NCBI GenBank assembly: GCA_019310975.1
Contig: JAFDDH010000013.1
Location: 1 to 64,000, forward strand
Direction of reading: 5' to 3'
Source of the DNA: Deltaproteobacteria bacterium
GTDB lineage: Bacteria > Myxococcota_A > UBA9160 > UBA4427
Length of the DNA: 64,000 nucleotides
Shown here: piece after piece, positions 6,748-53,467 of the stretch
Position numbering within the stretch: the first letter of the stretch is position 1
Layout: the number at the start of each line of letters is the position of its first letter
The notes under the pieces: model-generated
The model's database searches: none
Seen by the model: only the letters and a program-made list of their open reading frames with translations
Told to the model about the DNA's origin: nothing
Made by a program: the position numbers and the translations under genes

Positions 6748-7014
6748 ATGTCGATAATCGGTGAGCTGCAACGCTACCTCGACCGCAGCATCGACCTGCT
6801 CGCACCGGACACGGACCCAGCCCTCATCGACGCCCTCACGTCGGCCCACCCGACTTCGAGCGAAGACCTACCCTCGAGCGCCGAACGCATCCTCGAACTC
6901 CTCGACCGGCTGGGCGATCCGCCGCCCAGCAAGGGGGAAGAATCCCTCCCGGGGGACGCGCTGGAGAGCCTGGAACGCTTGCACGCCATCTGCCGCATCA
7001 TACTCGGCCAGTGA
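6748..7014 (+). CDS. hypothetical protein (88 aa)
   Basis: Intact ORF MSIIGELQRYLDRSIDLLAPDTDPALIDALTS... with ATG and gGGAG upstream; no recognised family. Confidence 0.5.
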   Translation: MSIIGELQRYLDRSIDLLAPDTDPALIDALTSAHPTSSEDLPSSAERILELLDRLGDPPPSKGEESLPGDALESLERLHAICRIILGQ

Positions 7015-7143
7015 ATGACCGATGCATGACGTATGGCGTCATCCCTGTCGAATTCCGGTGCTCGTCATGGTAGACAGGACGAACCAGTCCCGCCCGGCTG
7101 GAGCTGGAGCGCAGTCAGAGCCCGAGATGCAGGAGAGACGCGG

Positions 7144-8280
7144 GTGTTGCGAGGCAGGAGGTGCGCCTTCCTTCGGTCCAAGATGGGCGGGATCCTGCTC
7201 GCCGCGGTGCTCCTGGTCGCAGCTGCAACCAGCCAGGCGGTGGTCATTGCATCGGGCGACGGCAGCGGCAACACCAGCGCGCCCCCCGACGACCCTGGCT
7301 TCGCCAATCTGGGCGTCCTGAACGGGCTCACTGGCGTCTACCTGGGCAATGGCTGGGTGCTCAGTGCGTGGCATGTGGGCGAGGCGACATTCGTGATCGG
7401 CGGCGCCACATACCAGCCAGTGCCCGGCTCTCTCACGCGCCCCACCGGACCCGGTGCCGATCCGCCGGACTTGATGTTGATGAAGATCGATGGGGATCCG
7501 GGCTTGCCCACACTTCCCATCGCCTCGATGTCGCCGCAGAAGGGCGCGGACGTGATCCTGGTCGGCAATGGGCGCAGTCGCAATCAGCCGATGACCTACC
7601 TGGGCCACGCCGGCTGGACGACGAAGACTCCCTTCACGATGCGCTGGGGCACCAACGAAATCGGCCTGACATCCCAGCTGATGGCCGGCGCAATTCCGGC
7701 GGGACCCACCGAGACCATGAGTATCGGCACCGCATTCGACCCGCCCGGCACGACACCGCACGAAGGTCAAACGGTGCTCGGGGATTCCGGTGGCGCCCTA
7801 TTCCACCGGCAGGGACAGACCTGGCGGCTTGCCGGCACGCTCTACGGCTCGTCGACTCATCTCAACCAGCCGGATCCACAGAAGACGGCCGTCGAGGGGA
7901 ATCTGGCCATTGCAGCGGATCTTGCCTACTACCGCACCCAGATCCTCGCCATCACCGAGGTGCCGGGCTGCAACGACGGGCTCGATGACGACGGCGATGG
8001 ATTGATCGACTACCCCGACGATCCCGGTTGCAGCGATGCGAACGATATGTGGGAGAGAGCGCCGGAGCTGATCTGCGATGACGGCGTCGACAACGACGGC
8101 GACGGGCTCGTCGACCATCCGGACGACCCGCAGTGCATCTCGCCCCTCTACCACACGGAGGCGGCGCTCGTACCCGCCGGCGCCGCGTGGTCGGGCACCG
8201 TGCTCGCCGCGACGATCAGCGGTGCGGGCTTCGTCCGGCTCTGCCGCTGCGCGGCTCAGTCGAGCAGGCGCACTCTGTAG
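7144..8280 (+). CDS. secreted trypsin-like serine protease with C-terminal Asp-rich (calcium-binding-like) repeats
   Basis: Signal peptide GGILLAAVLLVAAATSQA; catalytic LSAWHVG and GDSGGALF; two copies of C-DG-D-DGDGL-D-PDDP-C. Start could be GTG 7144 or ATG 7183. Confidence 0.85.
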   Translation: MLRGRRCAFLRSKMGGILLAAVLLVAAATSQAVVIASGDGSGNTSAPPDDPGFANLGVLNGLTGVYLGNGWVLSAWHVGEATFVIGGATYQPVPGSLTRPTGPGADPPDLMLMKIDGDPGLPTLPIASMSPQKGADVILVGNGRSRNQPMTYLGHAGWTTKTPFTMRWGTNEIGLTSQLMAGAIPAGPTETMSIGTAFDPPGTTPHEGQTVLGDSGGALFHRQGQTWRLAGTLYGSSTHLNQPDPQKTAVEGNLAIAADLAYYRTQILAITEVPGCNDGLDDDGDGLIDYPDDPGCSDANDMWERAPELICDDGVDNDGDGLVDHPDDPQCISPLYHTEAALVPAGAAWSGTVLAATISGAGFVRLCRCAAQSSRRTL

Positions 8281-46651: not shown

Positions 46652-47620
46652 TCAGAGATCGGCCACCAGCTTGTCGTAGAGCTCCACGTATGCATGCCTG
46701 TCGTCACTGCTCACCGTCGCGATGGCGCTGCGCGGATGCTGGTTCAGCTGTCCGGTGATGTTGTAGGGCACCATCGGACCCCAGTCACACTTGTTGCGCA
46801 GGTCCACGAAGTAGTCCTGCAGCACCTGATAGACGGGGCGAACTCGATAGGCGGGATTGCGAAGGAAGCCGATCAGCAGCTCCATCGGACAGTTGCCGGC
46901 GCCACGCCCCATGCCCGCCATCGTCGCGTCCACCCGATTGGCGCCATGAATGATCGACTCGATGGTATTCGCGAAGGCGAGCTGCTGGTTGTTGTGGGCG
47001 TGGATGCCGACCTCCTTGCCCGTACCCTCGAGCGCCTCGCGATACTTCTTGACCAGCCGCTGGACCTGCTCCTGGTAGAGCGAGCCGAAGCTATCCACCA
47101 CCACAATGGTGCTCACGGGTGTCTCGCGCAGGATCTCCAGGGCCTGATCGATCTCCGCATCCTGCACGATGGAGATCGCCATCAGGTTGCAGGTCACCTC
47201 GTAGCCCTTGTCGGCGGCGTCATTGATCATATCGACGGCGACCGGCAGCTGGTGGACGTAGGTGGCTACGCGGATCACGTCGAGGACGCTCTGGCTCTTG
47301 GGAAGGATGTCCTCGTGGTAGTCGGTCTTCTCGGCATCGGCCATCGCGGCCAGCTTCAGTGAGCCGTCGTTATCGCCCACCAGGCGGCGCATGTCGTCCT
47401 CGTCGCAGAACTTCCAGTCACCGAATTTGCCGGGGGCGAAGAGCTTCTTGCTTCCCTTGTAGCCGAGCTCCATGTAGTCGATGCCGGCCTCGACGCAGGT
47501 CTCGTAGACGGCCTTCACCAGGGCGTCGTCGAAGAGGTGGTCGTTGACCAGTCCACCGTCCCGAATCGTGCAATCCATCACCTTCAGCTCGGGTCGATAC
47601 GTGATCCACGGTGCACTCAT
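46652..47620 (-). CDS. DRE-TIM/HMGL-like aldolase-domain protein
   Basis: KVMDCTIRDGGLVNDHLFDDALVKAVYETCVEAGIDYMELGYKGSKK...VGIHAHNNQQLAFANTIESIIHGANRVDATMAGMGRGAGNCPMELL. Confidence 0.85.
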   Translation of the reverse strand: MSAPWITYRPELKVMDCTIRDGGLVNDHLFDDALVKAVYETCVEAGIDYMELGYKGSKKLFAPGKFGDWKFCDEDDMRRLVGDNDGSLKLAAMADAEKTDYHEDILPKSQSVLDVIRVATYVHQLPVAVDMINDAADKGYEVTCNLMAISIVQDAEIDQALEILRETPVSTIVVVDSFGSLYQEQVQRLVKKYREALEGTGKEVGIHAHNNQQLAFANTIESIIHGANRVDATMAGMGRGAGNCPMELLIGFLRNPAYRVRPVYQVLQDYFVDLRNKCDWGPMVPYNITGQLNQHPRSAIATVSSDDRHAYVELYDKLVADL

Positions 47621-47742
47621 GGTCTGGCTCCTGGCGAAATGCCCTTCGAGATTCAGGGCGCAAGACTCCCAAGCGGGAGGGGGGAGTAGGGCATTCTAAG
47701 CCCATCCCGGATCGAGGTCCAGCGCGGGCACCGCGACCGGGC

Positions 47743-48775
47743 TCAGAACACGTAGCGCCGCATCGAAACGTTGAGCAGCAACCCGAGTGCAATTGAGGCC
47801 GAGAGGAGAGCTGAGCCGCCGTAGGAAAAGAGCGGGAGGGGCACGCCGATGACGGGGGCCAGGCCCAGTACCATCGCGATGTTGATCGCGGCCGGCCAGA
47901 AGAGCGTCCCCACCAGCCCGACGGCCAGCATCGCGCCGAAGCCGTCCTTCGAGTTGCGCGCGATCCAGAGTCCCCAGAGCAGCGTTGCAAAGTAGAAGAT
48001 CAGCACGAGGGTGGTGCCAATCAAGCCCCACTCCTCGGCCAAAACGCTGAACACGAAGTCCGTGTGCTGGGTCGGCAAGAAGCGCAGCTGCGTCTGCGCC
48101 GGACGAGAGCGGGTCCCGCGACGGATCCATGAAGTCGAGAATGCGCTGCTGCTGGTAGACCTTCAAACCGAACTTCCAGAGCAGGGTCAGCGCACCGGCA
48201 GCAAGAAACGCCATCCCCCACCATGCGCGCATCGGGATGTGGCAGAGCGGCAGGTAGGTGAGCGCAACCAGCAGGGTGAGCAGCGCCACGCCCATATCGC
48301 GCTGCAGGAGAATCAGACCGACCGGCAGAGCGGTGATGACGAGAGGTACGAAGAGCTGGCGCAGCTGCGTCACCGTGCTCGGTGGATTGCGGTGGAGCCA
48401 GCGGGCGAGCATGATGACCAGTCCGATCTTGGCCAGCTCCGACGGCTGGAACGAGCCCTGGTAGAGCCAGGCCTGGGCGCCGCGCGTCACGCTGCCCACG
48501 ATGAGAGTCAGCGCCAAGAGCGCGAGCGTACCGGCGAAGAGAACGGGCGCGAAGCGCTCGACGTGTCGGTAGTCGACAAAGGCCGCCACCACCACGAAGC
48601 CCGCGCCGAGCGCCATGGCGGCCATCTGGCGCCGCACGATGTCCGACATTCCACCTTCGACACCGGCCGCCGTGGCCGACACGAGATTGACCAGCCCGAA
48701 AGTCGCGAGCACGGCAACCAGGCCCACGAGCGTCCAGTCGAAGTTCTGCACCGAACGCCGATCCACCGTCAGCAT
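47743..48775 (-). pseudogene. rodA: rod-shape-determining protein RodA, internal out-of-frame deletion
   Basis: N-terminal frame (start 48775) reads ...YQQQRILDFMDPSRDPLSSG then shifts; C-terminal half in a different frame reads QTQLRFLPTQHTDFVFSVLAEEWGLIGTTL...FSYGGSALLSASIALGLLLNVSMRRYVF*. Confidence 0.85.
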
Positions 48776-48777
48776 GG

Positions 48778-50700
48778 CTACTCCCGGCCCTCCACGATCG
48801 TCTCCACGTCGTTGGCCGTCAGCGCCTCGGCCAGCGGCGGATGTTTCTCGAAGTATTTCGCGAGCACCTTCTGTGCGATCGGTGCCGCGATCGTCCCTCC
48901 GCCCTTCTTCGCGTGCTCGACCACTACGGCGACGGCGATCTCGGGCGACTCCACGGGCGCGAAAGCGGCGAAGAGTGCGTGGTCGCGGAAGCGGATGGGG
49001 ATCTCGTCCTCCTCGAGGTCCTTGGTGAACTCGAGTGCCACCACCTGGCTGGTGCCGGTCTTACCGGCCACCACCACACCGGGCACCCGCGCGCGCCCAC
49101 CCGTGCCGTGTAGATCATTCACCACCGCGGCCAGCCCCTGGCGAACACGCGCCAGGACCGCCGGATCGATCTCCGCGATCTTCGGCTCGACGATCTCGGG
49201 CACGATGACGACGTCGCCGTCCCAGGTCTCGAAACGCTTCACCAGCCTTGGCCGGTACACCCGGCCGTCGTTGCCCAGGGCCGCAAACGCGTTGGCGAGC
49301 TGGATTGGTGTCACCAGGTTGAATCCCTGCCCGATCGCGGCCGACACCGTCTCGCCCTTGATCCAGGCCTCGCGCCGCGTGCGCTCCTTCCACTCGCGCG
49401 TGGGGATCAGGCCCGGGCGCTCGGCTGCGAGCCCAACGCCGGTCTTCTTGCCGAGCCCGAAGTGCGCGGCGTACTTCGCCATGGTGTCGATACCGAGCTC
49501 GACCCCAAGGGTATAGAAGTAGACGTCGCAGCTGCCGGAGAGCGCCTGATCGAGGTCCACCTCGCCGTGGCCGCCGCGCTTCCAACAGCGATAGACGCGT
49601 CGGCCCATGCGATACCAGCCGGGGCAGAAGACAGTTTCTTCCGGATCGATCTTGCCCTCCGCAAGGCCAGCCACGGCGACGATCGCCTTGTAGGTGGAGC
49701 CGGGCGGGTACTGGCTGGCGATGGCGCGGTTGCGCAGAGGCTTCCACTGGTCGCCCACCAGCGCCGACCAGGTCTCCAAATCGATTCCGCCAGCGAATGC
49801 GTTGGGGTCGTAGGCGGGCCGCGAAACCATGGCCAGGATCTCGCCATTGCGCGGATCGATGGCCACGAGTGCACCCATCTTGTCGGGCTCCTCGGGATCG
49901 TCACTGCGAAACGCCTCCTCGGCGACCCGCTGAAGATCGAGATCCAGAGTCAGGACGACACGGCCACCCGGCGCGGGTTCGACTTCTCCGATCAGATCCA
50001 GCTCCCGGCCGGCCACATCCACGACGACGCTGCGGCCGCCCGCCCGGCCGCGCAGGTGCGACTCGAGTCGCGCTTCCAGGCCGAACTTGCCGATGATCTC
50101 ACCCGGTCGGTAGTCGGCGAAGGCCTCCTCCTCCAGCTCGTGGGCGTCGATCTCGCCGATCATGCCGAGCAGATGCGCGGCAAGAGAGGCGCCCAGGTAG
50201 TCGCGGCGCGGCGTCATGTCGGTCACCACACCGGCCAGCGCATAGCGGTGGGTTTCAACGCGCGCCCGCTGCTCGTAGCTGAGGTCGCCGTCGATCACCA
50301 CGGGATGGAAGCGGCTGCGCCCGGTCGGCCGGCCGACCTTCTGCTCCAACTCAGCACCGTCCACGGCCAACAGATCTCCGAGCATCGTGTAGGTGAAGCC
50401 GGCTTCGTCGACGTCGTTCGGGATCACGCGCACGCGGAAGGCCGGTCGCGTCGTCGCCAGCACTCTGCCCTCGCGATCCACGATTTCACCGCGTGGCGCT
50501 TCGAGCTTGAGATTGCGCACGGAGTTTCGCTGCGAGCGCACGCGCAGGTCCTCGCCCTCCAGGATCTGCAGCCAGAAGAGGCGCAGGAAGAAGACGAAGA
50601 AGACCACCACGATGCCCAGCGCGATCAGCCAGATCCGCAACTCGCCCGGTGCCTCGTTGGCCGAGCCCAGGCGCTCGTCGCCAAGCCCACGCCCGATCAT
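48778..50700 (-). CDS. mrdA: penicillin-binding protein 2
   Basis: YPPGSTYKAIVAVAGL (SxxK), SGSCDVYFYTLG, AGKTGTSQV; N-terminal TM and PBP dimer domain. Confidence 0.96.
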   Translation of the reverse strand: MIGRGLGDERLGSANEAPGELRIWLIALGIVVVFFVFFLRLFWLQILEGEDLRVRSQRNSVRNLKLEAPRGEIVDREGRVLATTRPAFRVRVIPNDVDEAGFTYTMLGDLLAVDGAELEQKVGRPTGRSRFHPVVIDGDLSYEQRARVETHRYALAGVVTDMTPRRDYLGASLAAHLLGMIGEIDAHELEEEAFADYRPGEIIGKFGLEARLESHLRGRAGGRSVVVDVAGRELDLIGEVEPAPGGRVVLTLDLDLQRVAEEAFRSDDPEEPDKMGALVAIDPRNGEILAMVSRPAYDPNAFAGGIDLETWSALVGDQWKPLRNRAIASQYPPGSTYKAIVAVAGLAEGKIDPEETVFCPGWYRMGRRVYRCWKRGGHGEVDLDQALSGSCDVYFYTLGVELGIDTMAKYAAHFGLGKKTGVGLAAERPGLIPTREWKERTRREAWIKGETVSAAIGQGFNLVTPIQLANAFAALGNDGRVYRPRLVKRFETWDGDVVIVPEIVEPKIAEIDPAVLARVRQGLAAVVNDLHGTGGRARVPGVVVAGKTGTSQVVALEFTKDLEEDEIPIRFRDHALFAAFAPVESPEIAVAVVVEHAKKGGGTIAAPIAQKVLAKYFEKHPPLAEALTANDVETIVEGRE

Positions 50701-51236
50701 GCGATCCTTCCTTGTGGGTCGAAGTGGAGCGTGCGTGAATTCGCATCGTCCTCCCCGGCCCAGATCGACACGCGCGTTATCACGCTGTACACGAAGGGCG
50801 CCACGAGGCCGTTGATCCCACCGTGCAGGAGCAGGTCGGCAACCCCGCCGAGAGTCAATGGGGTCCGGCCCACGAAGAAGGTCGAGACGGCCACCAGGGC
50901 AATCCCGTAGCCCACCGTAACGGCCGCGCTGAAGATTACGAGCGGCAGGGAGCCCTTCAGGTTCAGCTGGCGCCCGGCAAAGAAGGCACTCGCGAAGGCC
51001 ACCACGCGCAGCAGCGCGTGCTGGCCCATCAGTGAGCCCGAGAGCAGGTCCGCCGCAAAGCCGAGCAGGGCGGCCAGGCAGAGCCCGGCAGCGAGCCCCC
51101 GCCAGCGCAGCCCGATGCAGATCACCACCAGCACGCCCAGATCCGGACACCACGGCGGAGAAACGAAGGTGGCCAGGGCACCCTGCAGCACCAGCGCGAG
51201 TATTCCGGTCACCAGAAGGGCGATGCCCGATTTCAT
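50697..51236 (-). CDS. mreD: rod shape-determining protein MreD
   Basis: Five to six TM helices, PDLGVLVVICIGLRWRGLAAGLCLAALLGFAADLLSGSLMGQHAL; position between mreC and mrdA. Confidence 0.88.
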   Translation of the reverse strand: MKSGIALLVTGILALVLQGALATFVSPPWCPDLGVLVVICIGLRWRGLAAGLCLAALLGFAADLLSGSLMGQHALLRVVAFASAFFAGRQLNLKGSLPLVIFSAAVTVGYGIALVAVSTFFVGRTPLTLGGVADLLLHGGINGLVAPFVYSVITRVSIWAGEDDANSRTLHFDPQGRIA

Positions 51237-51246
51237 CGCACCGACC

Positions 51247-52227
51247 TCACGAGGGCGGTGTACCCGCATCCACCGCCGGCGTCGACGCCTCGGCAGTCTT
51301 GGCGCCATCCGCCTCGCCGGACGGCTGAACGGGAGCGGAATCGACTCGCTCGTGCGCCTCGGGCGCATTGCCGCCATAGAGCAGATCCATCGTGGGGCCG
51401 CGGCGCAGCATGACGAAGACCTGCTCGAGCCGACCAAAATCAACCGCTGGCTTGACGAGCGCGATCTGCATCAGGCTGCCACCCGGGTCGCGTAGCTCGA
51501 TGATTTCGCCCAATCGGAGTCCCTTGGGATAGACGCCGCCCAGCCCCGACGTGATCACCACGTCCCCAATGATTACGTCACTGTCGCGCGCCACGGACTC
51601 GAACTCCAGCTCATCCGATCCGCGTCCACGGACCATGCCGCGCGCTCGGCTGCGCTGCACCACCGCATCCACCGTGCTCTGGCGGTCGAGCACCAGCATC
51701 GTCTTGGCCGCGTGGGGCGAGGTCCGCGTCACCAGTCCGACCACGCCCTCGTCGGTGATCACCGGGTTTCCGGCGTGCACACCGTGCTCGACGCCGCGGT
51801 CCACCAGGACTGAGCGGAAGAGCGGCGAGACATCGAGGCCGACGACCTCGGAGGGCAGCATCGGTGTTTCGAAGTGGTCGCGCATGGCTGCGATGCGGTC
51901 GAGGTGTCCACTGGCCACGAGCGCTTCGCGGTATTGAAGGTTCTCCTCCTCCAGCCTCGACACCAACGCGCGCAGCTCTTCATTCTCTTCGCGCACCCCG
52001 ACCAGGTCGACATAGCCGTGCCATGTTCCGGCCAGTGCATCCACCGGCGCGGCCAATGCCTTCTGGATCGGGATGGCGAGCTCGAGCAGTAGCCCCTGCC
52101 ACCAGGGCAAGTCGCGACCGGCGTGCTCCATCAGGGCACGGCGATCGGTCACCATGCTGATGGTGGCGAGCAGCACCAATGCGCCAAAGGCGATCGGTGC
52201 GGCCATTCGCTTCAGAAATCCGGGCAT
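51247..52227 (-). CDS. mreC: rod shape-determining protein MreC
   Basis: N-terminal TM, coiled coil REENEELRALVSRLEEENLQYREAL, VVGLDVSPLFRSVLVDRGVEHGVHAGNPVITDEGVVGLV. Confidence 0.95.
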   Translation of the reverse strand: MPGFLKRMAAPIAFGALVLLATISMVTDRRALMEHAGRDLPWWQGLLLELAIPIQKALAAPVDALAGTWHGYVDLVGVREENEELRALVSRLEEENLQYREALVASGHLDRIAAMRDHFETPMLPSEVVGLDVSPLFRSVLVDRGVEHGVHAGNPVITDEGVVGLVTRTSPHAAKTMLVLDRQSTVDAVVQRSRARGMVRGRGSDELEFESVARDSDVIIGDVVITSGLGGVYPKGLRLGEIIELRDPGGSLMQIALVKPAVDFGRLEQVFVMLRRGPTMDLLYGGNAPEAHERVDSAPVQPSGEADGAKTAEASTPAVDAGTPPS

Positions 52228-52300
52228 GACTCCCCACGCCCGCCCCACGCGCTGACGGATCCGGCCGCCCGCGGGGGGCGCCCTCTGGCCCCGTCAGAGC

Positions 52301-53467
<1,167 letters not shown>

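Follow-up and report, generated by a model that had tools for sequence, protein, structure and literature searches.

The rodA gene in the 64,000-nucleotide stretch analyzed here (the window) raises a question: has the organism lost part of RodA, or has the assembly lost part of rodA? The original prediction, made from the sequence alone, described an internal out-of-frame deletion of about 70 bp around 48097/48098 in an otherwise intact mreBCD-mrdA-rodA operon, and proposed a recent pseudogene, a second gene copy, a programmed rescue event, or an assembly or sequencing deletion as explanations. We compared the locus with related genomes and searched the remainder of the same genome.

Reading frames of rodA and its operon

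The gene occupies the minus strand from 48775 to 47743, and its frame is indeed split at 48098/48097 (Table 1), with one RodA part on each side in different frames. The minus-strand context is ...GCTCTCGTCCGGC/GCAGACGCAG..., where 48098 is the final upstream base and 48097 the next; the position is ambiguous by 1 bp, as a single C can be assigned to either side. The 5' part corresponds to positions 1-218 and the 3' part to positions 249-356 of the 357 positions of the RodA/MrdB model TIGR02210 (Pfam PF01098, SEDS glycosyltransferases), so that together they cover nearly the whole model. Scored separately they reach 148.7 and 149.1 bits, respectively, both below the cut-off of 336.7 bits. A full-length SEDS domain in one frame is thus not encoded here, since it is spread over two frames and 71 bp are missing. 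The 5' part shows 77% identity with the nearest relative, genome G011, and the 3' part encodes the HTDF motif together with the transmembrane helices of the C-terminus. Past the junction, frame 0 is not soon stopped but stays open for 133 more codons, giving a 359-aa hybrid as the predicted product of the gene as assembled. No transmembrane-like 19-residue window was found in the frame-0 tail, and no N characters were found in the window.

Table 1. Coordinates of rodA, its junction and the neighboring genes in the window.
Feature	Position	Strand	Description
Gene just after rodA	46652-47620	-	322 aa; whole single-frame match
Frame-0 read-through tail	47696..48097	-	133 non-RodA codons, stop at 47696 (ORF 47696..48775)
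rodA 3' part	47743..48096	-	+1 frame, 117 codons + stop, QTQLRFLPTQHTDF...SMRRYVF
Deletion junction CTCGTCCGGC/GCAGACGCAG	48097..48098	-	71 bp absent vs relatives, +/-1 bp
rodA 5' part	48098..48775	-	226 codons, MLTVDRRSVQNF...DPSRDPLSSG; N-terminal part of RodA glycosyltransferase
mrdA (PBP2)	48778..50720	-	Intact; full-length single-frame match, 65-67% identity, three relatives
mreD	50703..51236	-	Intact; single-frame match, 48-58% identity
mreC	51247..52248	-	Intact, 333 aa; single-frame match, 66-75% identity
mreB	52301..53350	-	Intact; single-frame match, 94-95% identity

The remainder of the operon is intact, as originally claimed: for each of mreB, mreC, mreD and mrdA, the alignment to relatives is a single segment that keeps one frame. 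The listed ORF of mrdA is longer (48778..51153), while the alignment of relatives begins at about 50721. The mreBCD-mrdA-rodA order is common to the window and genomes G011, G012 and G008. The gene that follows rodA adjoins it in three relatives too (78-83% identity), and its product, judged by eye, resembles an aldolase of the pyruvate-carboxylase/HMG-CoA-lyase type. Within mrdA (48778-50720, minus strand) a shifted frame runs for 646 codons without a stop, in a genome of 66% GC. Because such stop-free shifted frames occur, an open frame downstream of the rodA junction is by itself poor evidence of a gene, and it is the conservation of the 3' part that provides the evidence.

The missing segment and constraint on the 3' part

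The size of the deletion could be measured exactly. It is 71 bp (23 codons plus 2 nt), with identical spacing in 19/19 aligned relatives, which makes the earlier estimate of about 70 bp precise. With a 58-residue query from G011 that spans the break, the missing segment was matched by RodA in 59 of 60 relatives, whereas in the remaining one (G059) the query matched only FtsW and no rodA was shown. The comparison with close relatives proposed in the original prediction therefore finds the segment matched through in nearly all of them, and among the genomes compared the deletion is seen in this assembly alone.

Alignment with solved structures of related proteins (E. coli MrdB, 8tj3; RodA, 6bar and 6pl5) places the absent codons at E. 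coli RodA 226-248, in extracellular loop 4, and the absent segment covers the positions of A234 and K243. The loop 4 segment G-Y-x-x-(M/I)-Q-S-(R/K)-I-A-(V/I)-G is present in all 19 aligned relatives and missing in the window. Loop 4 of RodA touches the pedestal of PBP2 (PMC8078798), and mutation at loop-4 sites such as A234 and K243 alters activation (PMC8078798; PMC13327600). Compared with RodA/MrdB, the gene in the window differs in lacking these 23 loop-4 codons and in having its two parts in different frames. The FLPTQHTDF sequence of the 3' part, which aligns with E. coli D262 and T. thermophilus D255, is consequently out of frame with the rodA start. We take the aspartate of the HTDF motif (D262 and D255 in these two proteins) to be the catalytic residue.

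The 3' part shows no sign of decay. Its protein identity with G011 is 91.5%, and a comparison between intact relatives, for example G011 and G010, likewise gives 91.5%. Values of pN (nonsynonymous difference) were 0.06 against G011 and 0.06-0.09 against relatives, as compared to 0.07-0.09 between intact relatives. The relaxed constraint expected of a decayed pseudogene is thus not observed, and the break is therefore either artefactual or very recent. A hairpin-driven deletion was also considered and discarded, as predicted single-strand folds of the corresponding G011 segment (z = 0.27) and of the junction (z = 0.51) are no stronger than those of shuffled sequences.

Other SEDS genes and other broken genes in the draft

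The genome to which the window belongs comprises 5.35 Mb in 477 contigs, with a completeness of 90.6% and a contamination estimate of 3.46%. A family search of this genome found the two rodA parts, a single additional SEDS gene located on contig C321, and nothing else. The C321 gene is flanked by murD and murG, with murC following (names assigned by reading the translations), and this placement identifies it as ftsW. Neither a second rodA nor the missing piece was found in the assembly with the 58-residue G011 peptide or by DNA search. The suggested second rodA elsewhere in the genome was thus not recovered, the search returning only ftsW. Likewise, the strong SEDS matches in the relatives searched are rodA and ftsW only. 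In the assembly rodA is a single-copy gene, and the completeness of 90.6% leaves an unassembled copy formally possible. Contigs C100 and C120 (loci L032 and L033) read wholly as N, so that the sequence examined falls slightly short of the whole genome. A scan of contigs found no same-species record; the only match was a distant one from Planctomycetota with 28% identity.

Codon composition was scanned for frameshifts over 257 kb. The scan was too weak to detect even rodA, whose 3' part scored only 12.7, and most of the other strong candidates inspected in the window were ordinary gene overlaps; for these reasons the relatives were used for comparison instead. On C321, two candidate breaks (at about 64 and 88 kb) were rejected, each being the shadow of a better match in another frame.

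Comparing contig C236, which carries rodA, with the matching region of G011 revealed a second lesion, outside the window and 23 kb from rodA. It lies in a LarB-like gene on the minus strand at C236:70905-71626 (about 6905-7626 of locus L026), which we take to be larB; near C236:71243, 25 bp are cleanly missing from within the gene, which leaves its two sides out of frame. The larB gene belongs to a nickel-cofactor pathway. Its 3' part shows 93% identity with G011. Of 29 other genomes with a match, 28 have larB in a single frame or truncated only where a contig ends, the exception being G005, in which it is found as two pieces on two contigs. In a two-way survey of 755 kb of this genome against 744 kb of G011, 2 genes (rodA and larB) of about 121 homologous genes were broken here, as against none of about 114 in G011. 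Two events are too few to fix a lesion rate, but they do show that rodA is not the only gene of the draft with such a lesion.

Origin of the rodA break

The 71-bp gap most likely is an error in a draft assembly of the metagenome type. Sequencing, assembly or scaffold joining may have introduced a small internal deletion, in which case the living organism would have nothing unusual at this locus, with rodA intact and its mreBCD-mrdA-rodA operon normal, and reads containing the segment would be expected. The metagenome origin of the draft is itself suggested by its 477 contigs and its completeness and contamination estimates. We favor an assembly or sequencing deletion because the 3' part is not decayed, the operon is intact, there is no backup for a gene of the essential type, and a clean out-of-frame deletion in the unrelated gene larB occurs on the same contig. 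In bacterial assemblies many frameshift pseudogenes are reported to be technical (PMC11017572), and rodA resembles such spurious cases in being a single disruption of a conserved gene, without decay and as one of two in the draft. That study concerned RefSeq assemblies generally, with frameshifts and internal stops as its subject, whereas the lesions described here are deletions of 71 bp and 25 bp in a probable metagenome bin. Some observations count against an artefact: the two sides of the junction share only about 1 bp, which does not indicate simple repeat collapse, neither N nor another scaffold scar is present there, the unremarkable folding of the missing segment lends no support to a polymerase skipping over a hairpin, no other contig of the assembly carries a copy of the missing segment, and two breaks in 121 genes are also compatible with ordinary recent pseudogenes.

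The same clean, N-free sequence and minimal shared sequence at the junction, resembling a spontaneous deletion, would fit a real and very recent loss-of-function deletion, with a rodA null allele present in the sampled population. We regard this as the main rival, possible but clearly the less probable explanation. The hybrid protein would then be without the loop that contacts PBP2, the motif with the catalytic Asp and the membrane helices of the C-terminus, and growth would proceed without RodA-driven elongation, with cells that are round or irregular or that rely on other synthases. Also in favor of a null allele, the other broken gene, larB, belongs to a nickel-cofactor pathway that the cell could perhaps do without. 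The single-copy status of rodA, the intact partner genes, the 3' part without decay and the retention of the segment in 59/60 related genomes all argue against a null allele. Moreover, E. coli becomes round and shows growth defects on losing any elongasome component (PMC13327600), so a null allele at population consensus would need a special circumstance. That a free-living bacterium with intact mreBCD-mrdA truly lives without RodA, its only elongation SEDS enzyme, leaving PBP2 partnerless or with a loop-less remnant, we consider very unlikely.

A real allele whose function is rescued, either by programmed frameshifting or by a rodA or other SEDS copy outside the assembly, has only a slight chance of being correct. 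The incompleteness of the genome leaves formal room for such a copy, and the RodA frame beyond the junction is both conserved and open; but the sole other SEDS gene is ftsW and the relatives searched yielded no prominent second rodA-like match. Programmed frameshifting relies on all codons being present and on the shift site having a stop or a slippery sequence. Here, unlike at typical programmed sites, there is no frame-0 stop near the junction, and a frameshift would still omit the 23 codons that all 19 aligned relatives possess. Recoding cannot supply codons that are absent from the DNA, and programmed rescue is therefore effectively excluded. Least probable, and very unlikely, is a minority or chimeric variant picked by the assembler from mixed strains, with intact and deleted alleles both in the sample. 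Metagenome assemblies do merge strains and there is some estimated contamination, but no fragment in the bin offers the intact segment as an alternative. Of the four options initially proposed, the second copy (in the assembly) and programmed rescue thus fall away, and a recent pseudogene and an assembly deletion remain, with the latter favored.

The rodA break is best read as an assembly error, with a very recent ordinary mutation as the fallback, and not as a new biological feature. It serves mainly as a warning: where a draft genome shows a core gene broken by a clean out-of-frame deletion, the reads are needed before this is taken as biology, and contig C236 carries two such deletions. Were the deletion real, the organism would offer a naturally occurring rodA null whose partner genes are intact, and with it a way to study the roles of PBP2 and MreB in the absence of RodA.
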